Assembly: GCF_000296695.1 (NCBI RefSeq)
Contig: NZ_BAFK01000015.1
Coordinates: 1 to 64,000 of the forward strand
Reading direction: 5' to 3'
Source: Rheinheimera nanhaiensis E407-8
GTDB lineage: Bacteria > Pseudomonadota > Gammaproteobacteria > Enterobacterales > Alteromonadaceae
DNA length: 64,000 nt
Of the stretch, positions 37,737 through 53,929 are shown piece after piece. Each line of letters starts with the position of its first letter. Position 1 is the first letter of the stretch. The notes beneath the pieces were generated by a model, which made no database searches, was not told the origin of the DNA, and saw only the letters and a list, made by a program, of their open reading frames with translations. The position numbers and the translations under genes were made by a program.

Positions 37737-38951
37737 ATGAAGGTATCAGTAAACAAGCGTAATCCTAACTCGAAAGGGCTTCAGCAACTTAGACTGGTGT
37801 ACTACTACGGTGTTGTTGAAGGGGAAGATGGCAAAAAAAGACCAAAGCGCGACTACGAGCCATTAGAGCTCTATGTCTATCAGAGCCCAAAAACTCAAGC
37901 AGAACGCCAGCATAATAAAGAGATGTTGCGTCAGGCCGAGGCTGCGCGGTCAGCCAGACTGGTTGAATCTCACGCCAACAAGTTCCAACTTGAAGACCGG
38001 GTAAAGCTTGCTTCGAGCTTTTACGAGTACTACGACAGATTAACTTCCACCAAGGAGTCAGGAAGCACCTCAAACTATTCAATTTGGGTTTCAGCGGGCA
38101 AACATCTTCGAAGCTACCATGGGAGAGCGGAACTTACTTTTGAGGAAATTGATAAAAAATTCTTGGAAGGGTTTAGGAAATATCTTCTGGAAGAACCTCT
38201 AACGAAATCTAAATCCAAACTTGCCAAAAACACTGCCTCTAGTTATTTCAACAAAGTCAGAGCCGCCCTGAATGAAGCATACCGAGAAGGCATCATCAGA
38301 GATAACCCTGTCCAGCGGGTAAAAAGTGTCAAGGCGGAAAATACGAAACGAACCTATCTCACTCTGGATGAAGTTCGGGCAATGACAAAGGCAGAGTGTC
38401 GCTATGATGTTTTGAAGCGGGCGTTTCTTTTTAGCTGCACGACAGGCTTGAGATGGAGCGACATCAATAAGCTTACTTGGAGTGAAATAGAGGAATTCGA
38501 ACCCGGTCATTATCGAATTATATTTGACCAGCAAAAACTCAAGAACGGAGGCAATTCTCTTGTATATCTGGATTTGCCAGATTCAGCGGTTACGCTTCTA
38601 AACATTCAAAATAGGAAAGGGCCTGATGATCGAGTCTTTGTTGGCCTAAAGTACAATAGCTATATGAATGTGGCTCTATTGCAATGGGCTATGAGAGCAG
38701 GCATAACCAAACACGTTACTTTTCATGCTGGTAGGCATACCTTTGCTGTAGCCCAACTTAACCGTGGTGTTGATATTTATTCTCTCTCTCGGCTTCTTGG
38801 ACACTCAGAGCTAAGAACAACTGAAATTTATGCAGATATTCTCGAAAGCCGCAGAGTAACAGCAATGAGGAGCTTTCCCGATATCTTTGAAGAACAAGCA
38901 AAAGAATTTGGATCTTGTTGCCCTCACTGTGGTCAGCAAGCAACCCCTTAG
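37737..38951 (+). CDS. int: Tyrosine integrase of the mnmE-specific island
   Basis: This 404-residue protein should integrate and excise the element. It has an N-terminal DNA-binding domain, a SAM-like core-binding domain (about 95-185) and the catalytic domain with arginine in TTGLRW (about 238), HAGRH (about 330) and the tyrosine in TEIYADI (about 364) after LLGHSELRT. A C-terminal CCPHCGQQ tail has paired cysteines. Length equals the SGI1 integrase closely. AGGAG precedes the ATG. The 3' end overlaps xis by four bases. Confidence 0.92.
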   Translation: MKVSVNKRNPNSKGLQQLRLVYYYGVVEGEDGKKRPKRDYEPLELYVYQSPKTQAERQHNKEMLRQAEAARSARLVESHANKFQLEDRVKLASSFYEYYDRLTSTKESGSTSNYSIWVSAGKHLRSYHGRAELTFEEIDKKFLEGFRKYLLEEPLTKSKSKLAKNTASSYFNKVRAALNEAYREGIIRDNPVQRVKSVKAENTKRTYLTLDEVRAMTKAECRYDVLKRAFLFSCTTGLRWSDINKLTWSEIEEFEPGHYRIIFDQQKLKNGGNSLVYLDLPDSAVTLLNIQNRKGPDDRVFVGLKYNSYMNVALLQWAMRAGITKHVTFHAGRHTFAVAQLNRGVDIYSLSRLLGHSELRTTEIYADILESRRVTAMRSFPDIFEEQAKEFGSCCPHCGQQATP

Positions 38952-39316
38952 GATGCTCTGCGGCCACGACGAGAGCCTGTAATATAGGCTGCAACATCTT
39001 GATGAATTTCATCTTGGGACTTCACTCTGTTCGTTTCAAGCCACGCCTGAAGGTCTGATCGTTTAATTAGAACTCTATTCCCTCCCGGTTTAGTAAACGA
39101 TACTCGTTTTTCATGAGTCAAACGGTAGATGTAGGAACGTTTGGCTCCAATGTAAGCCGCCGCCTCATCAACAGTCAGATACTCTTTATCAGACGGTGGT
39201 AAGCTCGACTTATTGCCGTCACTCCCAGCATTCTCAACAACTTGAGCTAGCAACATTTTTATCTCTGCCATCTCATTCCTCAAGTTTTGTAACAGTTCGC
39301 TTTCTTGTGCTGTCAT
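38948..39316 (-). CDS. xis: Excisionase with MerR-like helix-turn-helix
   Basis: The 122-residue protein has a short predicted coiled coil at the N-terminus (LLQNLRNEMAEIKMLLAQVVEN) and a winged helix-turn-helix of the excisionase type (YLTVDEAAAYIGAKRSYIYRLT, about residues 46-67, then RVLIKRSDLQAWLE). In SGI1 the gene in this position directs integrase towards excision. It is convergent with int and lies 79 bases downstream of an activator-type box, suggesting induced excision. Confidence 0.85.
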   Translation of the reverse strand: MTAQESELLQNLRNEMAEIKMLLAQVVENAGSDGNKSSLPPSDKEYLTVDEAAAYIGAKRSYIYRLTHEKRVSFTKPGGNRVLIKRSDLQAWLETNRVKSQDEIHQDVAAYITGSRRGRRAS

Positions 39317-39394
39317 CGCATACCTACTTCATTGGCAACCCTCTCAATGACTGCAATTTTATGGGTGCCCGTTGAGAAACCTCCGCTCTGAAAG

Positions 39395-39409
39395 TGCCCT
39401 TTTTGGACA
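39395..39409 (-). promoter_or_regulatory. Activator box upstream of xis (AcaCD/SgaCD-like)
   Basis: TGCCCTTTTTGGACA lies upstream of xis; 33 bases further in the direction of xis is TAAAAT, a plausible -10. The same box recurs upstream of other left-facing units. In SGI1 the IncC activator AcaCD controls xis; the factor assignment here is inference. Confidence 0.6.
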
Positions 39410-39427
39410 ACTCGGCTTACTTTCTGG

Positions 39428-39447
39428 AACTTTCACATGTGAAAGTT
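39428..39447. repeat. 20-bp perfect palindrome, copy 1
   Basis: AACTTTCACATGTGAAAGTT, preceded by GG. It lies five bases past the rep stop, before the xis activator box. Identical copies are at 41265 and 52113. Confidence 0.9.
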
Positions 39448-39451
39448 TTGC

Positions 39452-40693
39452 TTATTCTTTTAAAGGCCAATCAACGGGCCTGGTTGAGAGGTCTTCGGAA
39501 TGAACATCCCTAGTTTTGGCGTCATCTGACTTCAAATCACCACCGAGGAGGGACGATTCTTGTTGGCCCCTGCGGGGGGCAGGTATCTGATGTACACCAT
39601 GCTTAACAGCTTTGGGGGCCATAACAACCTCATCTAAGCTGATGACATTCGTTGAGCTTTCGGAGACTTCGTTGCAGATATGGCGATACTTGGCCACCGT
39701 TTGTCTGGATAGCTTGGCGAGCTTTGCTATGGCTGTTTGAGTAAGCTTCAAGCCCTGTTGCAATAACTGCCTGCAAGCAGCCCGTATCCGTGATTCCGTG
39801 GACTTCTGGCGAACCTCATGAGTACGCTTGGCCGACAATCTCTGACGTTCTCGCAGCGGTAGGGAGCTATCAAGTCGCATCATCCCCCGATGGCATCGAC
39901 TGGAGCCGGTATAGCGGTCCCACGTCCATCTGGCGACGCTTTTGACCGTGGCTTTGACCTGTGCTGCTGTTAGATTCATGTCAAAGCCACGAAGCCTGAA
40001 ATTGTTCTTATTAAAGGCGTAGGCTTCCAGCAGCCGGTTAAAGGAACCAAAGTTCCCCTGCTCACGTTCACGGTTGACGATTGAATAAGCGTAGAAACGC
40101 AGCTCCTCGAACAACAGGCAATGCCGTGAGTGCGCCACGGCATCAAGGTTGGGGCCAGAGCTCCACAAGGGCTTAACAGCCAAATCAACGTAATCGGCCA
40201 GTTCGCCCAGATCATAGATTGAATGGTGGATCTCCCAGGTATTCCACCACGGATGCCCCGGTGTTTTTGCGACCGGACCGCTGTAGGACGGATCAGCGCA
40301 CAACCGGGCCGCCATAGCCTCGTATACGGCTTTCATGAAGGCGATAGGCTTGGAGCGGGCGTTTTCGGTTGTGCAAACAGGGGGAATGGCGTAATAAAGG
40401 TGCGGGTGACCATTCTTGCGGTTACTGACGATGATATTGGGAGCGGGGAGTCCTTCGTCCTCCCAGATTAACGGGTTGGAGTGATCGAGGTCGAAGACCA
40501 ACCAGGAAACCATGCCTGGACGATTGACCTGCATATAGGGATAACGGATGGCATACTCGCGGGGCCTGATCCTGGCAGCCGTTTTATTGTCACTGCATCG
40601 CGGTAAGTATGGTGCTTCCGATAAAATCCGGTGGAGTGCCGTACCTTGTTGAAAATACCGACCGGAATCGGCAGTGGAAACTGCTACTTTCAA
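39452..40693 (-). CDS. rep: Replication initiator protein of the element
   Basis: The 413-residue protein resembles replicase/primase-type Rep proteins (ColE2 Rep and PriCT-like): WLVFDLDHSNP (about 64-74, acidic metal motif), NGHPHLYYAIP, then a helix-turn-helix (LTQTAIAKLAKLSRQTVAKYRHI, about 315-337). It corresponds to the rep gene that lets SGI1 replicate outside the chromosome. The start is TTG with a strong GGGAAGGG site and no alternative ATG, which suggests deliberate weak initiation. An antisense RNA candidate covers its leader. Confidence 0.8.
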   Translation of the reverse strand: MKVAVSTADSGRYFQQGTALHRILSEAPYLPRCSDNKTAARIRPREYAIRYPYMQVNRPGMVSWLVFDLDHSNPLIWEDEGLPAPNIIVSNRKNGHPHLYYAIPPVCTTENARSKPIAFMKAVYEAMAARLCADPSYSGPVAKTPGHPWWNTWEIHHSIYDLGELADYVDLAVKPLWSSGPNLDAVAHSRHCLLFEELRFYAYSIVNREREQGNFGSFNRLLEAYAFNKNNFRLRGFDMNLTAAQVKATVKSVARWTWDRYTGSSRCHRGMMRLDSSLPLRERQRLSAKRTHEVRQKSTESRIRAACRQLLQQGLKLTQTAIAKLAKLSRQTVAKYRHICNEVSESSTNVISLDEVVMAPKAVKHGVHQIPAPRRGQQESSLLGGDLKSDDAKTRDVHSEDLSTRPVDWPLKE

Positions 40694-40773
40694 TGTACCC
40701 TTCCCTTCGCTTGATTCTGAGCGGCCACGGGAAGTCGAAAGTCACCTTGAACTGGAATTCCCAGTGAGCAAGG

Positions 40774-40802
40774 TTGCAGATAGCTAACTTATGGCGTACA
40801 TT
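40774..40802 (+). promoter_or_regulatory. Candidate promoter of an antisense RNA to rep leader
   Basis: TTGCAG (40774-40779), 17 bases, TACATT (40797-40802). It faces right, opposite to rep, and leads into two hairpins and an intrinsic terminator. Confidence 0.45.
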
Positions 40803-40808
40803 ATTTAT

Positions 40809-40912
40809 ACGCATTGGCTTCCCAAGCCATGTGCTGAATGCTTTGCGGAGCGCCAACTCATCAGCATTCAACAACCGCTTACCAGACCCGGCCCAGTGCC
40901 GGGTTTGTTGTT
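40809..40912 (+). ncRNA. Candidate antisense RNA controlling rep
   Basis: Downstream of the promoter the plus strand folds into a hairpin TGGCTT/AAGCCA (40815-40829), a larger one TGAATGCT/AGCATTCA (40835-40870), then a terminator stem ACCCGGC/GCCGGGT (40886-40904) with TTGTTGTTTT. No protein gene on this strand needs that terminator. The RNA would be complementary to the rep mRNA leader, like RNAI of ColE2-type replicons. This is inference from structure. Confidence 0.5.
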
Positions 40913-41131
40913 TTAATGCTGGTTCTTCTGTATCCAGTCCCGAACTTCTGTGGCTCTGTAACGAACTTGGCGAGACACTCTTACCGGGCGAGGAAAGTCG
41001 CCTTTTTTTGAAAGGCGATTGAGGGTGACATGAGAAATCTGGAGCAAGTCAGTTACTTCTCGGATAGTAAGAAGCCGTAACTCTGCGTTGGTATGGTCTA
41101 AACCAATATTGATATTTTGTGAGCTGTTCAT
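40913..41131 (-). CDS. AlpA-family DNA-binding protein
   Basis: The 72-residue protein is mainly a MerR-like helix-turn-helix of the AlpA type (LTIREVTDLLQISHVTLNRLSKKGDFPRP, about residues 21-48). It occupies the position of S004 in SGI1, upstream of rep and probably cotranscribed with it. Its ribosome site GGGGA is part of a 9-bp inverted repeat (41137-41145 with 41166-41174), so initiation may be masked. Confidence 0.75.
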   Translation of the reverse strand: MNSSQNINIGLDHTNAELRLLTIREVTDLLQISHVTLNRLSKKGDFPRPVRVSRQVRYRATEVRDWIQKNQH

Positions 41132-41136
41132 TCGAA

Positions 41137-41174
41137 ATCCCCATCTTCTTGGATATTGCTAATACGATGGGGAT
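41137..41174 (-). promoter_or_regulatory. Inverted repeat masking the AlpA-gene ribosome site
   Basis: ATCCCCATC (41137-41145) and GATGGGGAT (41166-41174) are perfect 9-bp complements 20 bases apart. In the left-going mRNA the GGGGAT ribosome site, six bases from the ATG, would be paired with the upstream arm. It may alternatively be a protein operator. Confidence 0.5.
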
Positions 41175-41213
41175 ATTCTTAATCTGTTAGGGCTTAAAGC
41201 AGAGCGCTCAAGT

Positions 41214-41228
41214 TGCCCTTTTGGGGTG
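41214..41228 (-). promoter_or_regulatory. Activator box upstream of the AlpA-rep unit
   Basis: TGCCCTTTTGGGGTG, a variant of the recurrent box, lies 83 bases before the AlpA-like gene start. TTAAGA, a possible -10, follows 31 bases further in the transcription direction. Confidence 0.5.
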
Positions 41229-41264
41229 TAAAAGTAAGAAAACTTGCCTTATCTTTCTGCCCGG

Positions 41265-41284
41265 AACTTTCACATGTGAAAGTT
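41265..41284. repeat. 20-bp perfect palindrome, copy 2
   Basis: AACTTTCACATGTGAAAGTT, preceded by GG and followed by C. It lies in the gap between the traN stop and the AlpA-gene promoter box. Confidence 0.9.
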
Positions 41285-41307
41285 CTAGGCCCCTCCGACA
41301 CAGCAAA

Positions 41308-44097
41308 CTACTGCTTACCATCCCAGTCTGGAAAGATCTCGGACGCCAAGTCGCGCCGTGCCTTATCGACGTCGATGCCGTTCAAGCGTTCCAGTGTTCT
41401 CTCCTTGGTATTCTTACGACTACCGTCAATGTTGAAGTCGCTACCGTTGCCGGTAAGGCTGTCGAGGTTTAGCGAACTCGGGTCCGGAAACTTGCCGTTC
41501 TGTTGCAGGATGCCAAGCCACTCATCTAGGTTCACCTTGCTCCAGTCGATCTCTGCTATTTTGTCCAACGGGATGCCACCACACTGAGGGTTCTTCGGAT
41601 CACCAAAGGACTGACCCAGTTGAGGCCGAACTTGCTCTTGGATGATACGAGACAAGGGCGAGTTGAAGCAGCAGTATGCCTCTCGCTTCTCGACACAAGC
41701 ACCAAGAACTTTCGACTTGCAGTACGAGCCGACATAGGAGCAGTTCTTGAGAGCCCTCTTGGCGTTCATGGTGAACTCATCTTCCTCGCATTTGTAAACC
41801 ATCTGGATCATGACCATCGCCACGACATAGACCGTATATATTGTCATCGCTGTGCTCAGCCAAGTGGCAGCGCTTTCCATCATTCCTTCCTGAGCCATCT
41901 TACCAGCGCCTCCGGCAGCCGCCTCCTGAGTGGCAGCATCCTGCCCAAGTCCTTTCATGATGTCCGCCATGACCTCTTTAACCTGCTCGGTCAGTTGGTC
42001 CATCAATTCATCAATAACCTGCTCTACCGGTTGATAGAAGGAATCAACTGCGCCGGAGATATTCTCGATATAGCTGGTGAAAGGTTTGGTTATTTCGGTC
42101 CAGCCTTGTAAGACGGGCTCACGCAGGATCTGGTAAGCGCCTTTGATTGAATTACCGTTCTGGAGTCCCATCACTGCACCGTCCAGCTTTGGTACTGCCA
42201 TGATCAGGTTAAGGTAGTCGGCTAGCGAAATGTTAGATGGCTTCTCGCAGCAATCAGATACACCTCCTACAGCTATTTTGCATTCACCAGCCTCCCCTGC
42301 GAATGCTGAACATACGACGTTCTCATCACCAGTTGGATTCTTGTCCCCATCTTGTCCAGTACAGCTCATATCCTGGGTCATAAACTGAGCCGCATTGAGA
42401 AGAGCTGTGGCACGGGCAAAGTCAGTGCTTTGGGTCTTTGACACATCGAGACAATCATCCCCCATGCAGCGGATAGGCCCTCCACACTGGTACTCGGTCT
42501 CCTTTTCAAGCGTTGGCACAGCCACATCGGAGCCGCAATCGTAGGTATCTTCATGCACATAGCAGGTACCGGATGCGCCCTCGGCCCCATCCACGCACTT
42601 AGAGCTGATAAAACCGCACTGCGGGTTATTCTCGAATTCAGTACAGCTATTGAGATTACCGCCCGAGTTGACCGGGCAATGAGTTTCCCCCTGGGGATCG
42701 GTCCAGCAGTCCATTTGCCCTTTGTAGAAGTCGTAGTCAGCTTTGACCCGCACCTTTTTGCAGAGCTTTGGAATGCCTGGCAGGGGTGACGGCTTGAGTT
42801 GTGATTCACAAACCTTGATGCCATTGATAACAGTGCAGCCAGTAGTATCGGTCGGGTTATCAATGCAGGTAATTTCCCCTTGAGCAAATCCGTCGGCTAC
42901 GCCCTTGGCCGAATCCATACAGCTCTGCGGAGACCATTCATCCTTGGTAATGGCTTTGGATGGGTCATAACGGAGCTTAATGCGGCCATAGCCTTCACCT
43001 TCCCCGGTTACTGAAACCCGGATCTTGAATGTAACGACATCACCATTTTTCACATTCTTGAAATAGGGTGTGACATCAACATTTGGGTTCCGCTCCCAGC
43101 TCGTGGAAAGCTCACATTTACCAGCAGTTTCAGGAGGGAAGTTTCCATTCGGGCCAGACCACACCTTAGCCTCTTGGCCGGATTTACCGACCCAAACCTG
43201 CATATAGTCGTCCCACTTCACATATTCAAGCGTCGCGGAAACGATGGCGTCCGGGTTGCTTACCTGGACACGAGTGTATTCCTCATAGATTTTGCAGTTA
43301 CCTGCCCAATAGTCATCCCCGACTTTACCAATCCAGAGCTCTGTACATCCTTTGCCACAAGACTTGAGGTTGTATGGACCGTCATAGTGCTTCACTACAG
43401 AGGCATCGTAATCATGAACCACTTCGCAATCAGCGCTTTGGTCAACAACGCGCTGGCATCGCTCATACTCAGGAACATGAGTATTGATAGCGTTCTGGCT
43501 GATGGTTGTTTCGGCAGAGCAATCTCCAAACCCATCAGCAATGAGGTCCATGTCCTCGTAGGTCTTTTTGCTCAAGTTCAGTATCGGGTCCTTACTGAAA
43601 TCTGGACGTGAGCGGTTAGCTGCATCGAGGAGTACTTTGTAGGCAGCGCCTGAGATGGATGGATCGGCGCTATTCGCGTCGGACCAAAGAGCCCCCTTGG
43701 CGCTGTTGCCCACGTCGTCCATATCGTCGCCGGAATCATAAATACCCTGGAGCATGTCAACATCGGGTTTGTTGGCATCCGGGAAATAGTAGCTATCGGG
43801 TTGACCGTCACCACCGCTGGTACCGGGAAACAGGTCATTCACATTGATCTGGCTTCCACCATTCATCTGGAATTGACCGTCTTTCAGCGTCGGCATCGAG
43901 ATCGTGCCGTTTTGGACCGAACCCGAGTTGGCTCTGAACGAATTGGCTAGGTCCTGCCCAAAGGTCTGAGCTTCTTTCCCAACAGAGGAAATATCCGGAT
44001 TCTGACCGTCGGTGGCGTATGTATGGATCGGCAGCATCGACATTGTGACCGTCAGCAGCAAGGCCACTATTCTCATGAAGAGTGTTTGGTTTCTCAT
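41308..44097 (-). CDS. traN: Mating-pair stabilization protein TraN
   Basis: TraN is an outer-membrane, cysteine-rich adhesin that stabilises contact with the recipient during F-type conjugation. The 929-residue protein has a signal peptide (about 1-28, ending TYA), a large cysteine-rich central part (for example YRC-type spacing in DCSAETT, GCTELW, CYVHEDTYDCG, SDCCEKP), and C-terminal TraN signature cysteines (CSYVGSYCKSKVLGAC, YCCFNSPLSRIIQEQ). SGI1 encodes its own traN that substitutes for the helper plasmid's. An SD-masking hairpin precedes the start. Confidence 0.9.
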   Translation of the reverse strand: MRNQTLFMRIVALLLTVTMSMLPIHTYATDGQNPDISSVGKEAQTFGQDLANSFRANSGSVQNGTISMPTLKDGQFQMNGGSQINVNDLFPGTSGGDGQPDSYYFPDANKPDVDMLQGIYDSGDDMDDVGNSAKGALWSDANSADPSISGAAYKVLLDAANRSRPDFSKDPILNLSKKTYEDMDLIADGFGDCSAETTISQNAINTHVPEYERCQRVVDQSADCEVVHDYDASVVKHYDGPYNLKSCGKGCTELWIGKVGDDYWAGNCKIYEEYTRVQVSNPDAIVSATLEYVKWDDYMQVWVGKSGQEAKVWSGPNGNFPPETAGKCELSTSWERNPNVDVTPYFKNVKNGDVVTFKIRVSVTGEGEGYGRIKLRYDPSKAITKDEWSPQSCMDSAKGVADGFAQGEITCIDNPTDTTGCTVINGIKVCESQLKPSPLPGIPKLCKKVRVKADYDFYKGQMDCWTDPQGETHCPVNSGGNLNSCTEFENNPQCGFISSKCVDGAEGASGTCYVHEDTYDCGSDVAVPTLEKETEYQCGGPIRCMGDDCLDVSKTQSTDFARATALLNAAQFMTQDMSCTGQDGDKNPTGDENVVCSAFAGEAGECKIAVGGVSDCCEKPSNISLADYLNLIMAVPKLDGAVMGLQNGNSIKGAYQILREPVLQGWTEITKPFTSYIENISGAVDSFYQPVEQVIDELMDQLTEQVKEVMADIMKGLGQDAATQEAAAGGAGKMAQEGMMESAATWLSTAMTIYTVYVVAMVMIQMVYKCEEDEFTMNAKRALKNCSYVGSYCKSKVLGACVEKREAYCCFNSPLSRIIQEQVRPQLGQSFGDPKNPQCGGIPLDKIAEIDWSKVNLDEWLGILQQNGKFPDPSSLNLDSLTGNGSDFNIDGSRKNTKERTLERLNGIDVDKARRDLASEIFPDWDGKQ

Positions 44098-44098
44098 A

Positions 44099-44131
44099 GC
44101 ATAGCTCTCAATAAAATCTTGAGAGCTATGC
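44099..44131 (-). promoter_or_regulatory. Perfect 13-bp hairpin over the traN ribosome site
   Basis: GCATAGCTCTCAA (44099-44111) and TTGAGAGCTATGC (44119-44131) pair around a 7-base loop one base upstream of the traN ATG. In the mRNA the only Shine-Dalgarno-like stretch, GAGAG, lies in the 3' arm. There is no T-run, so it is not a normal terminator. Confidence 0.65.
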
Positions 44132-44166
44132 TATTCGGCTGAAGTAATAAACCTCCTACGCCAAAC

Positions 44167-44181
44167 TGCCCAATTGCGGAA
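44167..44181 (-). promoter_or_regulatory. Weak activator box upstream of traN
   Basis: TGCCCAATTGCGGAA is the most diverged member of the recurrent box. It lies 70 bases before the traN start, and about 33 bases from a possible -10 (TAGCAT). Confidence 0.35.
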
Positions 44182-44183
44182 AA

Positions 44184-44726
44184 TCACGCGGCTTTACTCT
44201 TATCGGCGACGCAAAAAGGACACTCGACGCAGGTCCTTTGGTTGACCGAGGTAAAGTACGTGCATTCACAATTATCGCACTGCTCAAGCATTGCATCACC
44301 ACATCTGAGCTCAGATGCCAAACACCAGGCATCAGTGATATCGAAAGGAGCCCATCGAGCTCCTTTCATACCAGGAACTTCCTTGCGAATAGCGTGATAC
44401 ATACGAAATGCCTTGTTCAAGGCTTTGATATCAATCGATCTGATTACGTCCTCACCACCAATATTGCGGTAAAGCTGCATCAGCAGTGACGCCTGAATCT
44501 TGGAGGTGTGACTGTGAATAAGCGTGGCCCCGCCACGGAAGGTACGTGATCTGCGCTCCAGCTCGTATCCGTCGTTTTCGATGTCCTGATATAACCTGCG
44601 TACCTGTTTGTACGTCAGTCCCGTCTCGATCATGATGATTTTGGTGATGTAGCCAGCCAAGGCCATGTGGCGTGCAGCTATCCATCGGCCTAGCCACCCT
44701 GATTTATAATCCGTGCTTTTCTCCAT
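44184..44726 (-). CDS. sgaC: FlhC-like transcriptional activator (SgaC-like)
   Basis: The 180-residue protein resembles FlhC-family activators such as AcaC and SgaC: helix-rich N-terminal region (RHMALAGYITKIIMIETGLTYKQVRRLYQDI) and a C-terminal four-cysteine zinc site (CDNCECTYFTSVNQRTCVECPFC, cysteines only partly shown here). It normally works as a hetero-complex with an FlhD-like partner and would activate the tra and xis promoters. No FlhD-like gene is seen next to it; a 62-residue membrane protein gene occupies the upstream position. Confidence 0.8.
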   Translation of the reverse strand: MEKSTDYKSGWLGRWIAARHMALAGYITKIIMIETGLTYKQVRRLYQDIENDGYELERRSRTFRGGATLIHSHTSKIQASLLMQLYRNIGGEDVIRSIDIKALNKAFRMYHAIRKEVPGMKGARWAPFDITDAWCLASELRCGDAMLEQCDNCECTYFTSVNQRTCVECPFCVADKSKAA

Positions 44727-44728
44727 TG

Positions 44729-44917
44729 TCAGGCTTCCTTGCTATTGGCGAACAAATTTCGGTATTGCATCCACAACGCTGCAATCACTATTGGAAGAGC
44801 TGCCGCGTAAAGCCAATCGCTTCGCTCCACCCCGTCAAGCGTAATCAGCGACGCGATAGACAAGGAAAAGAGGGCGGCAACGAACCAGACCAGTTTGTTT
44901 TTCTTGGTGTTCTTCAT
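44729..44917 (-). CDS. Small membrane protein upstream of sgaC
   Basis: The 62-residue protein has two hydrophobic segments (about residues 9-27 and 35-50). GGAG lies seven bases before the ATG at 44917. The gene ends two bases before sgaC, so they are cotranscribed. No family is recognised. Confidence 0.6.
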   Translation of the reverse strand: MKNTKKNKLVWFVAALFSLSIASLITLDGVERSDWLYAAALPIVIAALWMQYRNLFANSKEA

Positions 44918-45088
44918 CACATATCTCCTACGATAAAACTAGGGTTTCAATTCCTTTCTATCACGAAAGTTCAGATATGCAATGCCAAGCACTGTGTTTT
45001 TTTACAGTATCATTTTTTGATACTTTGAAGACTTGCAGTTTCAGGTAATAATGAAATATTGGTCATAGAATGACCGGAGGTATTCAAT

Positions 45089-45349
45089 ATGAAACGTATA
45101 TTTGGATGGAGCATAGTGCTGGCAACTTTGTTCGCTGCATACAAAATTGCTGGAAACGGAGGGCTTATTTTGTCCTTAATTCCATTAACTATTCTTATCG
45201 CCATTTTTGCGAATAGACATCCCAGAGACGCGGGTTCACAAGGTGTCAATTTTCAGGAATCGGTTAACTTTGATGACCAGGAAGACGTTAGTCTTCCCAT
45301 TCCTGATACTTCGGATACAGGGTCTGACTGGCGGGGAATACCTTATTGA
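45089..45349 (+). CDS. Small membrane protein divergent from the sgaC operon
   Basis: The 86-residue protein has two N-terminal hydrophobic segments (about 4-20 and 24-43) and an acidic C-terminal tail. A perfect GGAGG (45076-45080) precedes it, just after an inverted repeat GGTCAT/ATGACC (45061-45075). Another inverted repeat AGTATCA/TGATACT (45006-45024) lies further upstream and may be an operator between the divergent units. Confidence 0.6.
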   Translation: MKRIFGWSIVLATLFAAYKIAGNGGLILSLIPLTILIAIFANRHPRDAGSQGVNFQESVNFDDQEDVSLPIPDTSDTGSDWRGIPY

Positions 45350-45397
45350 AAGAACTTGCGTTACGCAGCGTCTTTCCTGTCAGTCTTCCCCGCCGGT
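45327..45397. repeat. Long inverted repeat between convergent genes
   Basis: ACTGGCGGGGAA (45327-45338) and TTCCCCGCCGGT (45386-45397) are complementary except for one G-T pair, 47 bases apart, with an inner hairpin TGCG-TTA-CGCA. It covers the end of the 86-residue gene and the end of the gene at 45400. It may serve as a transcription barrier. Confidence 0.5.
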
Positions 45398-45399
45398 GA

Positions 45400-45756
45400 T
45401 TAACCTTCAACTCGAAGGATTAGTTTGCCATCCCTGCAAGCCAGTGCAGGGTGGCGCTGGGCTCGACTAAGCCATCCTCTCAATAAATGCTGACAAATAC
45501 CTGTTTCCCTACTGGCGACCTTTAAGGCTTCAGCGCTGGTCACCAGGGCATCAGCAGCTCGCTCCACTGGAGTTACAAGCCAATCCCCGTGGCCTTCCAA
45601 CATCATCAGTTTCAGCGTATTGATAACCAAGGTCGGAGTAATAGGACCGCAAACTTTATGAGCCTCCAACAAGCTATCCATGCTTGCCCATACCAGTTCC
45701 AATTCGTCCTGAAGCTGGCGTTCCCGAAGTTTCAGTTGGACCAGTGCCGTATTCAT
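45400..45756 (-). CDS. Hypothetical protein following traG (S010 position)
   Basis: The 118-residue, mostly helical protein (N-terminal LVQLKLRERQLQDELELVWASMDSLLEAH) has no recognised domain or membrane segment. It overlaps the traG stop by ATGA, so it is coupled to traG. SGI1 carries a gene (S010) in this place. Confidence 0.65.
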   Translation of the reverse strand: MNTALVQLKLRERQLQDELELVWASMDSLLEAHKVCGPITPTLVINTLKLMMLEGHGDWLVTPVERAADALVTSAEALKVASRETGICQHLLRGWLSRAQRHPALACRDGKLILRVEG

Positions 45757-48700
45757 GAACCACCTCCTTGCTTAACTGCAAAATAGCGCGAAACTGGAGC
45801 CAGATAACCCCCGGCCTGCTCTCGTCCGGCTCCAGCAGCTGACTCAATGATATCCGCTGTTTTGTTGGCCAAGGCGTCATCGCCCATTTCACTCCGGAGT
45901 TGAGCCCGATATTCCTGTTCCTTTCCATCGCTTGCGCCCAAGATGGACGAGGCAAACAACCGTGCACCCGCATCCGAATGGAGGCCATGCTCTTGTATCG
46001 CGGTCTGCATGGCCAAATTACGAAACTCATCTCCGTACTGCTGCACAAAGGCCTGTGCATGCTCTGCACCTGCTTCGCTCGCGCTAGCAAGCGCTGCCGC
46101 GAAGAACATTCCACGCTCGCGAACCGACATGCCCTTGGCCGCCTCGGATAGATCCGATTTTCCAGTGAGCCATTCCTTGGCTGCATAGAAACCGGATACG
46201 CCTGCTCCGATAATGTCCCTACCCAGGTTGGCCGCACCAGTAGCCAGGAATCCTGGAAGGCCGTACTGATCTTTGATGTACTGATCTCCCTTATGTGCGT
46301 CGGCAATAAACTGATCACGCTGCTCGGGCGTCATCCGTGCCAGTTGGTTCATCGAGTTGGCAAAGTCATTTGAGAATCCATCCATGGCCGCCCCTGAGCC
46401 GCCAACGATCTTGTCGAAGAATCGACCAGCCCCTTCAGACGAAGCAAAGATATTGGATGCGGTGGATGGTTCTACATTGGAGTTCATTATCTGCGTTCTC
46501 AGTGACCCCAATCGCTCATCCTGGAACGACTCCTTTTGATTGGCATGAACGTCCTGTACTCGGCTCATATTCTTGTCATGCTGCTGGAAAACCGCCTTTT
46601 CACTAGGCACACTGCCATAGGCTTGGGTACGCTGCCTCTCGTTCATACGACTGGGATCTTGGAGTTGCAGGGTGTTGGAAAGGCCGGTGATTGCCGGAGC
46701 TTGCTGGACAAGCAACTGGTTCTCGTTAAACCGCCCCACACCCTGTGTGACGACACCACCAGTAGCCGCCGAGATAGCCTCAGCCGCAACAGCCTGCTCG
46801 ACTCCCTTGCCTGAATTCAAAAGCGCGTATATTTGTCCACCGGCTAACGCCTGCGCGGAGTCCATTCCCAGTGCCTGATAAAACCGTGCTTTTTCGGCAG
46901 CGGCCTGACGAGTCTCTGGCGACGCCATACGCATTCCATTCTGTAACATGGTGCTTGCGGCTGGACTACCGACGGTAGAGGCCGCCAATGCCCGCATATC
47001 CATTTGACTAGCCGTGCCAATTGAACTTTGAGCGGAGGAAAGGCGCTGATACGTATTTTGAGCGCTAACGGCTTGTGTCGCGGATTGGGAAAGTTGCTCG
47101 CGTTGTTCCTCACCCAATGAATTGGTGAACCGCTGGCCTGACTCAGTGTTGGTTTGTCGCGCCAGATCTTGGGTCAACGCTGCGGAATCATCCTTGGAAA
47201 AGCCCAAATTCTTTGCCAGTTTATCCAGATCCGTGGTCAGTTGCTGACGCTGATCCATCGTTCTGGACTCAGCAGATCCCGAAACATCTCCCTGTACTTT
47301 CAATGGTGCGTCTTTGCCAACTGCTCCTGACTTCGCAGCGATTCGACCTATTGGCCCACCAATCACCGCAGCAAGCTTACCTGCATCAACTGATCCTGAA
47401 GCCTTCATAGCTATGGCACCAGCTATGGCATCAGTGTGCGTTTCGGACAAACCGTACTGTCGTGCGTAATCCTGAGCCTGACCGTAAATTGCCTTGGCCT
47501 GACTCGAATCGGATGCCCTAAGAGTTTGGCCCAACCCCTGCAACCTGGCGTAGCTCTGTTCAGCCGATGCCCCGGAGAAAACCGAGTTTGATAGCTGTTC
47601 GGAGAAATTCCGCGTAGCTTGGGCAGATGCGGCCTGGCTGCTGCTAACCACTGAACTCAGGGTTTGTCCGATGTTCACCTTATCGACAAGCGACTCAGCT
47701 CCTGAGGCCATGGCACCACTGAACTGGTTATACGAGAACGCCGGTTGGCCTTTCATTACCGGATCTTGCTGCAGAAGATCAGGCGTTTGCATTTTCTCGT
47801 TTACGTGGTCGCCGCCGTTGATGCGCGAGGCTAGGCTGGTAAAGGCATAGGTGCTACCAGTGACGATGAACAAGGAAATGATCGGCGTAGCAGCGGCCAA
47901 CATCCCACCCGTTGCGATCCAGTGTTGCAGCACGTCACCTGTCGATGACAGCGCATACATAGAGTCCAGCCCGGAGCTACTCAGGCTGGACATCTCCTTG
48001 GATGCCGCCGTGTGAACAAACAAGTTGATAATGGACAGAACTGGCATCCAAAGCTGAATCCAAAGGATGGTCTGTACATATTTGCCCGCCAGTTGGAGAC
48101 CAAAACTCCCCATTACGATGATAAAGGCAATGATCGGAGTGATCGCGTAGATGAACCCTTCGAAGAAGGTCAACATTGGGCGAACCACCGTCATGAACAT
48201 GGACTGTTCCGCCGCCCACTGGGTATTCCTCTGCTGAATGGCCTGGTTAATCATCAGCGCGGAGCCGTAGTCCTGTAAGTCCTGATAGCGACCAGCGGCA
48301 GCCTCGTAGTAAAGGGGTTCCAGCACGGCAGCCTTCAAATAATCGATGGATGATGTTGTCGAAGCTCCCATGGCTTGCAGCGAATCGCCGATTTTGGTGA
48401 TCGCGTCATCGCCGGCACTGGTATCGATTCCCAGCAAGTTGTTCAAGGCATCAACCACCACAGGGCTATTCAAGTTTTCAGTGGCGTTACTGATGGCGAC
48501 CCAACCGTCAGTACAGGTGTAATCGGCTCCATCGGGGTTAGATACTGAGAGATAAAGACGAGTCCCATAAAGTTGTGAGTTAAACCGAAGCGCTGTGTCT
48601 GTTGGACGATTCATGAGTTCATCCAAGGACATCAATCTGAGGTCAACCTTGGTTAGAGTGCATTCTCGGATGTAGTTGTTCCAGGAAAGGCGCACATCTA

Positions 48701-49196
48701 CGTATCCACCGCCATTGGCAGCATTGAGGGCGGTGAAGACTCCGGTATCATAAGCTCTTCTGCGAACATCATTCAGCAGCTTCAAAGTCTCCGAGAAGTG
48801 GCTTTCCGTGACGTTAGGTACGATAACCCCATATCCGGTCTCGAAAAGGTTGGTAATGGTGTACCCAACATTGGAGATCATCCCCCCCGCAAAGCCAACC
48901 AATAGCGGGACGTTGGCAACGACACGCACCTCGCCTGTATAGGCGTCTTCAATAGTCACGGTCGTTGTGGGACCAAAAGAACAGGCATAGATGAGCCATC
49001 CCAGCAAAACCTGCTGGAAGTTGATCTGTCGAGCCCCCTGAAAGACAGACTGAATACAAATGATGAGCACTCCGAGTAACAAGCCAATGCTGACCATTTT
49101 CTCGAAGTCCCCGGTACCAGTAATCATGGATACCGCAATCAGGATTTGCTCCAGAAATGCGGAGTCACCGATCGAATGAATTGAAAAAGCTCCCAT
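45753..49196 (-). CDS. traG: Conjugative mating protein TraG
   Basis: TraG of F-type systems acts in pilus assembly through its membrane N-terminal half and in mating-pair stabilization and entry exclusion through its periplasmic C-terminal half. The 1147-residue protein has N-terminal hydrophobic segments (about 30-90 and 335-455) and a long Q/S/A-rich soluble C-terminal region with a coiled-coil look. In SGI1 the island's TraG replaces the helper's and evades its exclusion. It lies 12 bases after traH. Confidence 0.9.
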   Translation of the reverse strand: MGAFSIHSIGDSAFLEQILIAVSMITGTGDFEKMVSIGLLLGVLIICIQSVFQGARQINFQQVLLGWLIYACSFGPTTTVTIEDAYTGEVRVVANVPLLVGFAGGMISNVGYTITNLFETGYGVIVPNVTESHFSETLKLLNDVRRRAYDTGVFTALNAANGGGYVDVRLSWNNYIRECTLTKVDLRLMSLDELMNRPTDTALRFNSQLYGTRLYLSVSNPDGADYTCTDGWVAISNATENLNSPVVVDALNNLLGIDTSAGDDAITKIGDSLQAMGASTTSSIDYLKAAVLEPLYYEAAAGRYQDLQDYGSALMINQAIQQRNTQWAAEQSMFMTVVRPMLTFFEGFIYAITPIIAFIIVMGSFGLQLAGKYVQTILWIQLWMPVLSIINLFVHTAASKEMSSLSSSGLDSMYALSSTGDVLQHWIATGGMLAAATPIISLFIVTGSTYAFTSLASRINGGDHVNEKMQTPDLLQQDPVMKGQPAFSYNQFSGAMASGAESLVDKVNIGQTLSSVVSSSQAASAQATRNFSEQLSNSVFSGASAEQSYARLQGLGQTLRASDSSQAKAIYGQAQDYARQYGLSETHTDAIAGAIAMKASGSVDAGKLAAVIGGPIGRIAAKSGAVGKDAPLKVQGDVSGSAESRTMDQRQQLTTDLDKLAKNLGFSKDDSAALTQDLARQTNTESGQRFTNSLGEEQREQLSQSATQAVSAQNTYQRLSSAQSSIGTASQMDMRALAASTVGSPAASTMLQNGMRMASPETRQAAAEKARFYQALGMDSAQALAGGQIYALLNSGKGVEQAVAAEAISAATGGVVTQGVGRFNENQLLVQQAPAITGLSNTLQLQDPSRMNERQRTQAYGSVPSEKAVFQQHDKNMSRVQDVHANQKESFQDERLGSLRTQIMNSNVEPSTASNIFASSEGAGRFFDKIVGGSGAAMDGFSNDFANSMNQLARMTPEQRDQFIADAHKGDQYIKDQYGLPGFLATGAANLGRDIIGAGVSGFYAAKEWLTGKSDLSEAAKGMSVRERGMFFAAALASASEAGAEHAQAFVQQYGDEFRNLAMQTAIQEHGLHSDAGARLFASSILGASDGKEQEYRAQLRSEMGDDALANKTADIIESAAGAGREQAGGYLAPVSRYFAVKQGGGS

Positions 49197-49208
49197 GTCA
49201 ATTCTCCC

Positions 49209-50645
49209 TTAGTTCGTGCTGGGAGGATTGGACAAAGTAGCAAGCATGTATTTTTGCTTACGGATGTTGTCCAGAAGACTGTTGTATTTTTCTATCTGGC
49301 GGGCCAGATCTCCGTACTGGGATGACAAGATGGCGTATTCAGAACGGACTTGTTGCTGAGACTGTGACAGTAGTTCCAGCGCCTCCTTCTTGTAAGGAGA
49401 TTCACTGTTCGCCAAGGAGATGCGGGCCGCCCGGAAGAACTCTTCTGTAAAGCTGTACATCATGGTCAAGGCGATGGCTCCTGAAGATTCCGTGGCGAAC
49501 AGCGTCGCGCCATCGCGGGAGAGAACCGACAGGTTTCGGATGATGGTGCCTACGCCATTGGGGAGATTGGAAACAAAAGCCTTTTCTGCCCCGGTGAGTG
49601 TTCCGGAGTTTGTCGCATACTTGTAGATGACGCCAGGCGTGGAACTCGTTCCCAACAGCATGTCGGTAATCTTATTTTTAATTCCCTTCAGTTCTACTGA
49701 TTTGGTGCCAGAGCCTCCAGAACCAGCCTCAAGACAGTTATTCGTGTCGCTACCACAAGAATAGATTTCTACTGTTCCGCCAAAGATGAGATCGCTAAGC
49801 GTAATTTTATTTCCGGGAAGAGATTGGATGGGATTGGTTTTCGACCCGGAACTAGAGGAGTTAGGATCATCTACAAGATCTCCAATGATAACAGTACCGG
49901 TCAATGACATGATTGCTTCCAGCAATGTATTGTCTCCATACTGAAACCATGATGCGGCACCATTCTTCTTAAATTGCTTCCAAAGAATGTTCCCAATTTG
50001 CTTTTCATATTCTTGCGGTGCATTTTGCTTGGTCGTTTCCGGAGCAGATACACCATCCTTTTCGCTGGTTGCCGAGAATATATCCTCATATAAACCTATT
50101 GCTGCCGACTTAATAATCCCCCCTGTTTTTTGTGCAACATCCAGCGACGACGCGGGATTGGTCACAAGCCCTTGCGCAAGCTGACAGGAATTACTTAAGT
50201 GTTGATTGAGCTCCTGAACTTTCTTCTGGAAGTTCTCAATCCATTTAGCCCCGTCTGGGAAAACATTATCGAGAGCAAGCTGGAACGCATAACCCTTCGC
50301 ATTTGCCGCAACGGCCCTCATTAGCTGGACAATCTGATCAGCGTTAACAAAAGATAAAGACCCACCAAATAAATCCACACCACCACATCCAGCCTTCCAA
50401 GAAGGAGGGGCGAAACTCACTAGGTTTTCATCGAATATCTTCGTTTTGGATGTTAATCGCCCCCCAGAAATCACCCCTCGGCGCTGAGTCTCGTAAACGC
50501 CTGGTGGAGTAGTGTTGCTCATCTCGTTAAATAGCTTGTCCATCTGTGCTTGTAGTCCATTTGCGGCAACGTTGGCAGATGCCAAGGTCGCCGTAACGGA
50601 AAGAGAGACAAGAAGTATCTTTAAGGACTTTTTCTTATGACTCAT
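49209..50645 (-). CDS. traH: Conjugative pilus assembly protein TraH
   Basis: TraH is a periplasmic protein needed for F-type pilus assembly. The 478-residue product starts MSHKKKSLKILLVSLSV with a signal peptide cut near ANVAANG, and has TraH-typical sequence GCGGVDLFGGSLSFVNADQI and a C-terminal coiled coil (QSQQQVRSEYAILSSQYGDLARQIE). The ATG at 50645 with GAGGT five bases upstream is preferred over a longer frame lacking a signal peptide. Confidence 0.9.
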   Translation of the reverse strand: MSHKKKSLKILLVSLSVTATLASANVAANGLQAQMDKLFNEMSNTTPPGVYETQRRGVISGGRLTSKTKIFDENLVSFAPPSWKAGCGGVDLFGGSLSFVNADQIVQLMRAVAANAKGYAFQLALDNVFPDGAKWIENFQKKVQELNQHLSNSCQLAQGLVTNPASSLDVAQKTGGIIKSAAIGLYEDIFSATSEKDGVSAPETTKQNAPQEYEKQIGNILWKQFKKNGAASWFQYGDNTLLEAIMSLTGTVIIGDLVDDPNSSSSGSKTNPIQSLPGNKITLSDLIFGGTVEIYSCGSDTNNCLEAGSGGSGTKSVELKGIKNKITDMLLGTSSTPGVIYKYATNSGTLTGAEKAFVSNLPNGVGTIIRNLSVLSRDGATLFATESSGAIALTMMYSFTEEFFRAARISLANSESPYKKEALELLSQSQQQVRSEYAILSSQYGDLARQIEKYNSLLDNIRKQKYMLATLSNPPSTN

Positions 50646-50717
50646 TTCAACCTCAATTTGCGGATAGTCGTTGGCTCCAGAGTAACCAGCGATAATCGGC
50701 AAACCGAACGCTGTAAG

Positions 50718-50732
50718 TGTCCATTTTGGGCA
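50718..50732. promoter_or_regulatory. Activator box between traH and the lipoprotein gene
   Basis: TGTCCATTTTGGGCA is, read on the other strand, TGCCCAAAATGGACA, the clearest match to the xis box. It is 73 bases from the traH start and could serve traHG, and perhaps also the divergent lipoprotein gene. Confidence 0.6.
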
Positions 50733-50873
50733 TCCTCTTACTAAATGTAGATAAACCTCATTAACTTTGTACGTTCAGAACATATTTCCATTTTTTTCAA
50801 GAAGATGCCTGCATGTTGTTGCGTTTTTGAAGACCTATGGCAACCTAATCCAATTGCTATAGGAGAAACCTCA

Positions 50874-51749
50874 ATGACGAAGAAATTAACAGTAATAATT
50901 CTTGCAGCCGGACTGGCCTCAGGCTGCGCAACGACGACAAACAGCTACCAATACAAGGGAGACCATAGCCGCGCCTACAACTTAGCCCAGGCCGGAGGCC
51001 TGTACGACGCAAGGGATTACGACATCCCCAGGGATCAGCGAGACGGTGTTATCAGCAAGGGATGGGATGTAACGGGTGACGCACTGCTGTTCAATTCCGG
51101 ACATGGGCTTGGATTGGACTGGGGCAAGTCACTAGGCTTGGGCTTGTTGACCAGTGCCTTTGCACCAAAGGGCGTTATGGAGCGAGACAGCGTATTTGGC
51201 TGGCTTCCGGAAACAAAAGCAGGTAATGCCAGAGAAGCCTGGGAACTGATGTCGAGTACTCTGCTCGATGGTATAGAGAAGACCTTACGGAAAGCGAATG
51301 TCAAATATGTTGTCGATAACAGGAACCTGCATCAGGACTTTCCTCTAATGTCGGAGTACATTTTTTCCTCGGTGCGAATTGTCGATCCCGAACATGGTTG
51401 CCCTGACTGGGAAAGTGCCAATCGAGACTATGACCAATCCTGTTACGTGGCCACGACCGTGTATGCCCCCACGGAAGAGCCACGAAAAGTGCCTGATTTC
51501 CTGATGGCCGGGCAAAATGGCTATGGCTTCTACGCAAATGATGAAGCGGATTACTCCCGCATAAAGGTGAACATCCCCAAAGGTTCCAACTTGGACAAGA
51601 ACCAGTTGCTTGCAGGCATCAGCTATGAGCTTCCATCCTGGGCATTCATCTTTGTTGCATCGCAAAAGCTGGATACTGACGGCTACACGGCACCGGTGAT
51701 CCTGACAACAGGGAAGGCCGAACTATTCATCACGCCGGATCAAGGATGA
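50874..51749 (+). CDS. Predicted lipoprotein (S013 position)
   Basis: The 291-residue protein has a lipoprotein signal ending ASGC, with the lipidated cysteine at about residue 18. The rest is not recognised. GGAG lies eight bases before the chosen ATG. It is transcribed divergently from traH and overlaps the next gene by ATGA. Its product is probably in the inner or outer membrane and may work with the downstream protein. Confidence 0.75.
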   Translation: MTKKLTVIILAAGLASGCATTTNSYQYKGDHSRAYNLAQAGGLYDARDYDIPRDQRDGVISKGWDVTGDALLFNSGHGLGLDWGKSLGLGLLTSAFAPKGVMERDSVFGWLPETKAGNAREAWELMSSTLLDGIEKTLRKANVKYVVDNRNLHQDFPLMSEYIFSSVRIVDPEHGCPDWESANRDYDQSCYVATTVYAPTEEPRKVPDFLMAGQNGYGFYANDEADYSRIKVNIPKGSNLDKNQLLAGISYELPSWAFIFVASQKLDTDGYTAPVILTTGKAELFITPDQG

Positions 51750-52180
51750 GCGTGTGGCATGATGCCCTGGAGATCGGTCTGCTTCATTTGGAGGAGACCG
51801 GCCTCTACTGTGATGGCATGACGTATGTGATCAGCCACCTGCTTCGGAAAGGCGGCATTCCCCACCGGTGCTTCATAGGCTATGTGAAAGACGAGAAACG
51901 TGGCGACCTGGTAGCGCCGCATTGCTGGGTAAAACTGGAGGGAGATGGTGATTGGGTTGTCGATCTCCGACTACGCACTTGGTTGGGAGATGATGACGAG
52001 GTACCTCATGGTGTGTTTCAAACGACTAAGTGGTCACGGTTCACTTATAAGGGAGAGCCTATGGTAGACATCAAGATGGACGAAGAGATAGTTGCTGCCA
52101 TGACCGATGGAAAACTTTCACATGTGAAAGTTCCTGAACGCAACGATTACTCAGTACCGTTTTTACGGGATTTGTTATAG
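51746..52180 (+). CDS. Transglutaminase/papain-like fold protein
   Basis: The 144-residue protein shows a possible cysteine-histidine-aspartate triad in transglutaminase order: C22 in LYCDGMTYVIS, H59 in APHCWVKL and D73 in WVVDLRL. This suggests a peptidase or amidase-like enzyme; it is an inference from pattern and spacing. It is coupled to the lipoprotein gene. The coding sequence contains copy 3 of the 20-bp palindrome. Confidence 0.6.
   Translation: MSVWHDALEIGLLHLEETGLYCDGMTYVISHLLRKGGIPHRCFIGYVKDEKRGDLVAPHCWVKLEGDGDWVVDLRLRTWLGDDDEVPHGVFQTTKWSRFTYKGEPMVDIKMDEEIVAAMTDGKLSHVKVPERNDYSVPFLRDLL
52113..52132. repeat. 20-bp perfect palindrome, copy 3, inside a gene
   Basis: AACTTTCACATGTGAAAGTT, followed by CC, lies in frame within the transglutaminase-like gene and encodes part of GKLSHVKVPE. 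Confidence 0.9.
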
Positions 52181-52254
52181 AGGTACAAACTTCCAAAAGT
52201 CACCACAGTAAAAAATGCCAGTAAGCTCAGCATTCCTATTGTAAAAGCGTCCAT
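52147..52254 (-). CDS. Small single-helix membrane protein (35 residues)
   Basis: The frame encodes a product starting MDAFTIGMLSLLAFF with one transmembrane helix and a short basic tail. GGGAG lies about six bases before the ATG. It overlaps the 3' end of the preceding plus-strand gene by 34 bases. Conservation is unknown. Confidence 0.45.
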   Translation of the reverse strand: MDAFTIGMLSLLAFFTVVTFGSLYLYNKSRKNGTE

Positions 52255-52315
52255 CTAGCTCTCCCAATCATTCGGTTCTATACTCTAACTTTACATCATT
52301 AAACGGTATATTCCA

Positions 52316-52471
52316 GTGGCAAAAACACTAGACCAGATCTTGGAGCATGAGAAGCCAGAAATTGTAGCCGAGGCCAGACGCAAGGCATCAGAGATGCTCC
52401 GCCTCTTGGATGAGCAAACGGCCAAGCAGGATAATGAAACCGATTCAGTAGATTCCTATCACCAGAAGTAG
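52316..52471 (+). CDS. Short helical protein, GTG start (51 residues)
   Basis: The product starts MAKTLDQILEHEKPEIVAEA and is charged and helical. No ribosome site is obvious, but a strong terminator directly follows the stop, which supports a real transcript. The N-terminus resembles that of some short Xre-type regulators; no helix-turn-helix is complete. Confidence 0.45.
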   Translation: MAKTLDQILEHEKPEIVAEARRKASEMLRLLDEQTAKQDNETDSVDSYHQK

Positions 52472-52504
52472 CAAAGGGCCAGACAAGCTGGCCCTTTGCT
52501 TTTC
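52471..52504 (+). terminator. Strong intrinsic terminator
   Basis: A perfect 12-bp stem (52471-52482 with 52488-52499, core AAAGGGCCAG/CTGGCCCTTT) with a 5-base loop is followed by TTTTC. It is convergent with the genes at 52512-53372. Confidence 0.9.
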
Positions 52505-52511
52505 TCAGTAA

Positions 52512-52781
52512 TTACATCACTAAGTACGGTTCATCGTTGTCGCTTTCAGCTATCGTCAAGTCAATAGTGAAAGTGATATCGATGCGCTCAACAGTCCGAT
52601 TACACTCACGAGCATACTCATCCTGCAGGCTTTTAAACAGCGCTTCAGCTTCATCATGAGAAGTAGCTTCTACTGTTTCAACAGCCAACTCACCTTCTTT
52701 TTCAGTGTAGTTAACCCCACGATAATACACGCGGCCACACACATCGAATTGATGGATCTCTGTTTGATTTTGTCCCAACAT
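52512..52781 (-). CDS. Hypothetical acidic protein
   Basis: The 89-residue protein is predicted to be alpha/beta with no membrane segment. The ATG at 52781 is preceded by GGAG six bases upstream. It is the last gene of a left-facing unit. No family is recognised. Confidence 0.6.
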   Translation of the reverse strand: MLGQNQTEIHQFDVCGRVYYRGVNYTEKEGELAVETVEATSHDEAEALFKSLQDEYARECNRTVERIDITFTIDLTIAESDNDEPYLVM

Positions 52782-52858
52782 ATTAATTCTCCAAAAGTTT
52801 AATAGCCGGGACTTAGCCCAACCGGGCAAAGCACCCGGTTGGGTTATTTAATTAGGGA

Positions 52859-53044
52859 TTAGGCTTCAGGCATGTTGCGTATAGTGAAGGACTCACAAAC
52901 ACCATGCCCGTAAAGCACTGCATTTCCCTGGGGATTTTGTTCCAAAAACTTGCGCGTGGCTTTGAGAGCTGCCCTATAACCAGCATCAGAAGGCTGATAC
53001 TCTCGCGTTCGCTTTTTTTGGTTTGTCAGAATCAGTCGATACAT
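52859..53044 (-). CDS. Hypothetical small basic protein
   Basis: The 61-residue protein (MYRLILTNQKKRTREYQPSD at the start) has no recognised domain. GGGAG lies at a normal distance from the ATG. It lies between the membrane protein gene at 53372 and the acidic protein gene, in the same direction. Confidence 0.55.
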   Translation of the reverse strand: MYRLILTNQKKRTREYQPSDAGYRAALKATRKFLEQNPQGNAVLYGHGVCESFTIRNMPEA

Positions 53045-53054
53045 AAAATCTCCC

Positions 53055-53372: not shown

Positions 53373-53551
53373 AAACACCTCCAATTAGTTGGAATTGAAG
53401 GGGTTACACCGCATAACCGGTGAACCCCGGTTACGGGATAAATTGATAAAATGCTGTTTGTTTTCGGCGACCAGCTATCGCACATACTCAGCACGGAGCT
53501 GAAGTTGATTCAAATTTAACAGCTCATTTCTGAATCGACACGCGCTGTATT

Positions 53552-53566
53552 GGCCCTTTTTGGGCA
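53552..53566 (-). promoter_or_regulatory. Activator box upstream of the 53372 unit
   Basis: GGCCCTTTTTGGGCA is another copy of the recurrent box. TTAAAT, a plausible -10, lies 31 bases downstream in the transcription direction. Between box and first gene is a leader of more than 100 bases with no gene. Confidence 0.55.
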
Positions 53567-53926: not shown

Positions 53927-53929
53927 CAA

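Follow-up and report, generated by a model that had tools for sequence, protein, structure and literature searches.

Centromere sites of IncC plasmids and of SGI1

The parS centromere of IncC plasmids is the palindrome TTTCACATGTGAAA with AAAC/GTTT flanks and is bound by the plasmid-encoded ParB (Muranyi et al. 2024, PMC10954446). Plasmid R55 carries 14 copies, four of them inside genes, and the core count per IncC/IncA plasmid is 7-14, with 5 in a deletion derivative. In EMSA, ParB shifted all three sites tested and left the bare 14-bp core unbound, so the flanks matter. The island SGI1 contains two parS sites, DR1 before S004 and DR2 before traH, at spacings of 25 and 10 bp from AcaCD boxes. 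These sites hijack the partition system of the helper and destabilise it, leading to helper loss. One SGI1 parS site stabilises an SGI1 mini-replicon once ParA and ParB are supplied, and mutation of the DR1 site, near PS004, lowers SGI1 copy number (Muranyi et al. 2024, PMC10954446). Three and four chromosomal parS copies were described in two strains, for which the authors draw no link to SGI1-related elements in the portions of the paper covered here (PMC10954446).

SGI1-family islands have a syntenic backbone, int-xis-rep-S004-traN-sgaC-traG-(traH)-mpsA (PMC9035990), and AcaCD and the FlhDC of SGI1 act at a core published as GCCCAAAATGGGC (PMC5058578). KorB of the IncP plasmid RK2 resembles the IncC protein in that a KorB-domain ParB both partitions and regulates, which makes it a model for nearby promoters (PMC10954446, PMC11790492), whereas its operator differs, consisting of 13-bp palindromes (PMC10954446). 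Clamp sliding, another point on which KorB can be compared, is not reported for IncC ParB in the literature covered.

An SGI1-family island in Rheinheimera nanhaiensis

The window considered here is the first 64,000 nucleotides of contig NZ_BAFK01000015.1 of R. nanhaiensis E407-8. An SGI1-family island occupies the trmE 3' end, at about 37520-64702 of the contig; its right end lies beyond the window, where a second copy of the direct repeat, with one mismatch, is found at contig 64688-64702. Pfam and protein comparison revealed the syntenic gene order, with an SGI1-like backbone from int to the resolvase. The names S004, S013, S014, sgaC and mpsA were assigned by position and similarity, mpsA with 98% identity to the gene of an SGI1 fragment in addition to its place. 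The features needed below are the following.

36158-37534, forward strand: trmE (mnmE), insertion site (TrmE_N, MnmE_helical)
37520-37534, forward strand: left end of the island at the trmE 3' end, direct repeat TGTATCGGGAAGTGA, located by sequence
38948-39316, reverse strand: xis-like HTH_17 gene (PF12728), named by position
39428-39447, no strand: parS-type palindrome copy 1, exact match, in the rep-xis gap before the presumed xis promoter
39452-40693, reverse strand: rep (Replicase and PriCT_1; PF03090, PF08708)
40913-41131, reverse strand: S004-like AlpA/HTH gene (PF05930, PF12728)
41265-41284, no strand: parS-type palindrome copy 2, exact match, in the traN-S004 gap, the slot of SGI1 DR1
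41308-44097, reverse strand: traN, neighbour of copy 2
50805-51749, forward strand: S013-slot gene without a Pfam family, 25% identical to the gene in the corresponding slot of the SGI1 fragment L143
51746-52180, forward strand: S014-slot transglutaminase-like gene holding copy 3 (PF01841, E 0.00024, 21.8 bits, below the cut-off of 23)
52113-52132, no strand: parS-type palindrome copy 3, exact match, within the 3' end of the transglutaminase-like S014 gene, translated as L-S-H-V-K-V
52316-52471, forward strand: sci candidate of 51 aa with a GTG start, named by place and length as in PMC10954446 and not by comparison with a Sci sequence

The SGI1 fragment used for comparison (L143, OX345320.1) is a 20-kb linear record labelled as a Salmonella plasmid that resembles SGI1 from traN to a subtilase gene. 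The right part of the island is 93.5% identical to it at the DNA level over 52171-61250, and the left part is more diverged, with protein identities of 77% for traN (573/929 residues), 52% for traG and 61% for traH. The sci candidate, about 180 bp past copy 3, shares 51/51 residues with a gene of the same record. The 93.5% match starts at 52171, about 40 bp past copy 3 and ahead of sci, which places a mosaic boundary beside the site. TraN (41308-44097) and the FlhC-like activator (44184-44726) are 85% and 90% identical to proteins of an IncC plasmid. No resistance protein was recognized by name among the 18 distinct island proteins run against Pfam. A megablast of 37700-55500 against 5426 Escherichia coli genomes yielded no near-identical copy: 94 genomes match, none over more than 80% of the query, and the best 20 of these 94 all cover the same 45 bp.

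Three palindromes of the IncC parS type

The 20-mer AACTTTCACATGTGAAAGTT occurs in three exact copies in the window (39428-39447, 41265-41284 and 52113-52132), as an earlier note on this DNA had reported, and the neighbours it had named are also the right ones: rep and xis, traN and the AlpA-like S004, and the interior of the transglutaminase-like reading frame. Its view that such a repetition cannot be due to chance is in keeping with 0 copies in 100 dinucleotide shuffles, and the 3.99-Mb host assembly contains no fourth copy, even with up to two mismatches allowed. The 14-bp core TTTCACATGTGAAA is likewise found in the whole assembly at the same three places only.

A full-text literature search with the core led to a single paper, on the IncC centromere (Muranyi et al. 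2024, PMC10954446). The core and the flanks of all three sites fit the published parS. The inner flanks AAC and GTT are present in all three copies, right-hand GT included. The extension GGAACTTT is shared by copies 1 and 2 and AAAGTTC by copies 2 and 3, the two-and-two pattern noted previously, and copy 1 on the reverse strand has 24 bp in common with copy 3 (AAAAC-core-GTTCC). None of the three copies matches the full 22-bp consensus: copies 1 and 3 deviate at one outermost base, in one arm, and copy 2 at two, the outermost base of both arms. The IncC plasmid used here for comparison, NZ_CP048797 (150000 of 151684 bases covered; R55 is the plasmid studied in print), encodes a KorB/ParB_N protein (30210-31391) and has 13 copies of the core. 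Judged by their sequence, the palindromes belong to an already described class, IncC parS, and ParB would be predicted to bind all three.

Among the functions proposed for the 20-mer in the earlier note, partition is the one that stands, the site being an IncC parS bound by the ParB of the helper and not by an island protein (PMC10954446); a regulatory role is backed in part, by the lower SGI1 copy number after mutation of the site at PS004. The binders suggested in the note, the AlpA-like, Xis and SgaC-like proteins, gain no support from the present analysis. Copies outside this type of element, which the same note regarded as telling against its reading, do literally exist, on the IncC plasmid and on other contigs. 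These copies identify the function rather than refute the reading.

Copies 1 and 2 and the neighbouring promoters

Copies 1 and 2 come after the stops of rep and traN, where transcription terminators or RNA hairpins could be expected; their z values in RNA folding are -2.4 and -3.6, and on the forward strand a T-rich stretch comes after copy 1. However, any palindrome will fold by its very structure, the stem lacks a following T-run in the reading direction of rep or traN, and copy 3 lies within a gene with z = -1.4. The 17 terminator-like sites listed for 39000-53000 include none of the three copies. On the basis of this listing and of the folding the terminator reading was rejected, leaving it the slightest of chances.

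The same two copies precede the xis and S004 genes, and palindromes fit dimeric HTH proteins, so that they might be operators for a regulator encoded by the island, namely the AlpA-like S004, Xis or the FlhC-like activator. This is very improbable. The same core is present 13 times on the IncC plasmid and core sites are bound in print by the plasmid ParB (PMC10954446), AcaCD and the FlhDC of SGI1 use another core (PMC5058578), and copy 3 is located within a gene.

Three AcaCD-like cores were placed in the window.

39396-39408, reverse strand: AcaCD-like core GTCCAAAAAGGGC with 2 mismatches, the presumed activator site of Pxis
41215-41227, reverse strand: AcaCD-like core with 3 mismatches, the presumed activator site of PS004; a weak match by itself, assigned because it lies upstream of S004
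50719-50731, reverse strand: AcaCD-like core with 1 mismatch, the presumed activator site of PtraH; in contrast to SGI1 DR2, no parS adjoins it

The motif alone is at chance level (29 occurrences with up to three mismatches in the window, against 28.5 expected), and the boxes therefore rest on position and on a control comparison: of the 156 distinct sites in the loci used, 37 have an AcaCD-like core no more than 70 bp away, versus 42 of 825 control places. At copy 1 the box is 22 bp from the 14-bp core, hence 18 bp from the 22-bp site, and at copy 2 it is 36 bp from the 22-bp site. In SGI1-type relatives the distances are 29 and 14 bp when measured from the parS core, and 25 and 10 bp when measured from the 22-bp site, the latter equal to the published SGI1 spacings (PMC10954446) and different from the 18 and 36 bp of the window.

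The copy inside the S014-type gene

The S014 protein is 49% identical to its IncC plasmid homologue (137/144 residues) and 44% identical to the product of the SGI1-fragment gene (109/144 aligned). The plasmid homologue carries a parS core at the same near-3' place (L144:4541), and in the 42 bp surrounding it the plasmid and window sequences agree at 40 positions.

At this place the core-bearing S014-type genes encode LSHVKV or ISHVKV, and copy 3 could accordingly be a mere by-product of a conserved peptide LSHVKV with no DNA site behind it. The other genes argue against this, and very little credence can be given to it. SHVKV is absent there from eight aligned core-less genes (L032, L041, L065, L083, L110, L114, L115 and L143) and from four distant plasmid homologues. 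Where residues under the core are identical their codons agree in every pair (5/5, and 4/4 with L144), against 30-48% elsewhere in divergent pairs. Most of the aligned S014 genes come from contigs fetched for the palindrome, which makes the codon and peptide comparison circular for them. Two genes retrieved by protein search, one from an IncC plasmid (L197) and one from a Pseudoalteromonas plasmid (L198), also carry the site; they are the two examined of 40 listed protein matches with at least 43% identity. The proposal of the earlier note that an in-frame copy reflects selection on the DNA is thus supported by homologous genes, with this caveat of sampling.

A plasmid origin of the S014 gene was considered and is not claimed. 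A 16-row tree that includes the parS region places the eight site-bearing genes on one side (97/98); once the parS region is removed and four distant rows are added, the tree leaves the window gene unplaced and requires three changes for the group. The support for such an origin depends on the parS region itself.

ParB and the distribution of the sites

No IncC-like ParB is encoded in the host assembly: the single match, at 36% identity (E 1.8e-15), lies beyond the island and is presumably the chromosomal ParB. An island without ParB is as expected of a parasite of a helper, and SGI1 shares this feature. Compared with the IncC/IncA parABS of R55 and NZ_CP048797, the island thus has the sites without the IncC-like ParB.

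The sequence also occurs outside this element: among the matches listed, the 18-mer is found in at least 117 stretches on at least 74 contigs. Of 394 sampled genomes of the order, eight contain the 20-mer with up to one mismatch, four of these exactly, the genome under study counted. By record name the 18-mer stretches belong to 67 genomes, of which 65 were searched for IncC ParB, Heimdallarchaeota L080 and L134 being left out. Among the matches listed, an IncC-like ParB (50-100% identity) is present in 12 of these 65 other genomes and absent from 53, which show weaker matches of at most about 39% or none. Both situations thus exist in this listed set: sites accompanied by their ParB and, in the larger number of genomes, sites that lack it. 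For most of the 53 an SGI1-type island is not established, and draft assemblies may miss plasmids.

Sixteen of the ParB-less genomes have island-type genes by a site: 12 contain two cores, four contain one and none contains three. Two of them (G762 and G774) have their two cores on separate contigs, and for some (e.g. L027, L072), where an S004-like gene was the sole island-type gene recognized, island status is putative. The other 37 have one core (20 genomes), two (8), three (4), four (2), or six, seven and ten (one each). Three sites were considered as a record number and this was dropped, since nine of these 37 have three or more; the rarity of three sites is limited to genomes with SGI1-type genes, and three cores are unusual among SGI1-type relatives only. 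In the nine genomes with three to ten cores, a non-IncC ParB may use the same site.

Several of the other occurrences have an organization of their own. Two to four cores per genome are spaced by about 2.09 kb (2.08 in some) in L093, L106, L071/L112, L067 and L051/L127 (Shewanella, Vibrio, Proteus) and in G301, and those searched lack an IncC-like ParB. The shared spacing points to another element type, and these sites probably belong to a second kind of mobile element using the same parS. In L106 and L112, a site has an AcaCD-like core at a distance of 27-28 bp. A contig of Marinobacter vinifirmus (L082:1-8000) has six cores in 8 kb, with ten genome-wide and no IncC-like ParB. The 18-mer is also present in Heimdallarchaeota MAG contigs (L030, L073, L080, L120, L134), the flanks of L120 and L134 being the same on opposite strands. 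A viral source was rejected: the 18-mer is on one viral contig, 0 of 19 window proteins match 7 kb of it, and no S014 relatives were found in viral contigs. In a viral contig (L022:1-2000), a short TCCGATAA/TTATCGGA motif is repeated very many times within 2 kb in both orientations.

Comparison with the SGI1 layout

The island resembles SGI1 (PMC10954446) in the core and inner flanks, the location at trmE, the copy in the traN-S004 slot and the sci candidate. The SGI1 fragment, too, has a core directly past traN (L143:1427), and the two nearest relatives (L058/L110 and L077/L032) show the SGI1 layout with its published spacings of 25 and 10 bp. The window departs from this two-site arrangement at PS004 and PtraH: the S004 slot is occupied, the site at PtraH is absent, and extra sites lie before Pxis and in S014, making three copies versus two. 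The flanks of copies 1 and 2 are unlike those of DR1 and DR2, and descent from the SGI1 repeats is therefore unsupported. Overall, this is a known kind of site in a new layout, with one copy more than SGI1 and two in other places; the literature covered on SGI1-family islands and IncC parS contains no report of a three-site island.

Proposed role of the sites

The three palindromes are very probably mimics of the IncC/IncA parS in a ParB-less island of the SGI1 family, serving both partition by the ParB of a helper and destabilisation of that helper. An IncC-like plasmid would be the helper that mobilises the island. Upon its entry, the KorB-type ParB of the helper would load on the three sites, and the excised, replicating island would be partitioned by the helper ParA/ParB. 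The extra sites would at the same time compete for the partition machinery and destabilise the helper, an effect to which the sci candidate close by would be expected to add. Partition and disturbance of the helper are proposed here by analogy with SGI1, where they were shown.

Situated before the AcaCD-like boxes of xis and S004, copies 1 and 2 may give ParB a means of tuning excision and replication as well. Such a control of xis and Pxis is modelled on the effect of DR1 (PMC10954446) and on KorB as a regulator (PMC11790492). A more tentative extension, which we consider possible but doubtful, is that the parS at Pxis lets the helper ParB gate excision and replication, and that centromere DNA, rather than function, dictates the end of the S014 protein at a place common to helper plasmids, a plasmid-type gene thereby acting as an island centromere beside sci.

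These observations suggest that centromere mimicry extends beyond clinical SGI1 to environmental relatives, and that the number and position of the sites are free to change while some of them stay beside AcaCD-type promoters. The copy in the S014-type gene suggests a centromere imprinting a peptide, and the copy before Pxis raises the question of whether the partition protein of the helper also controls excision.
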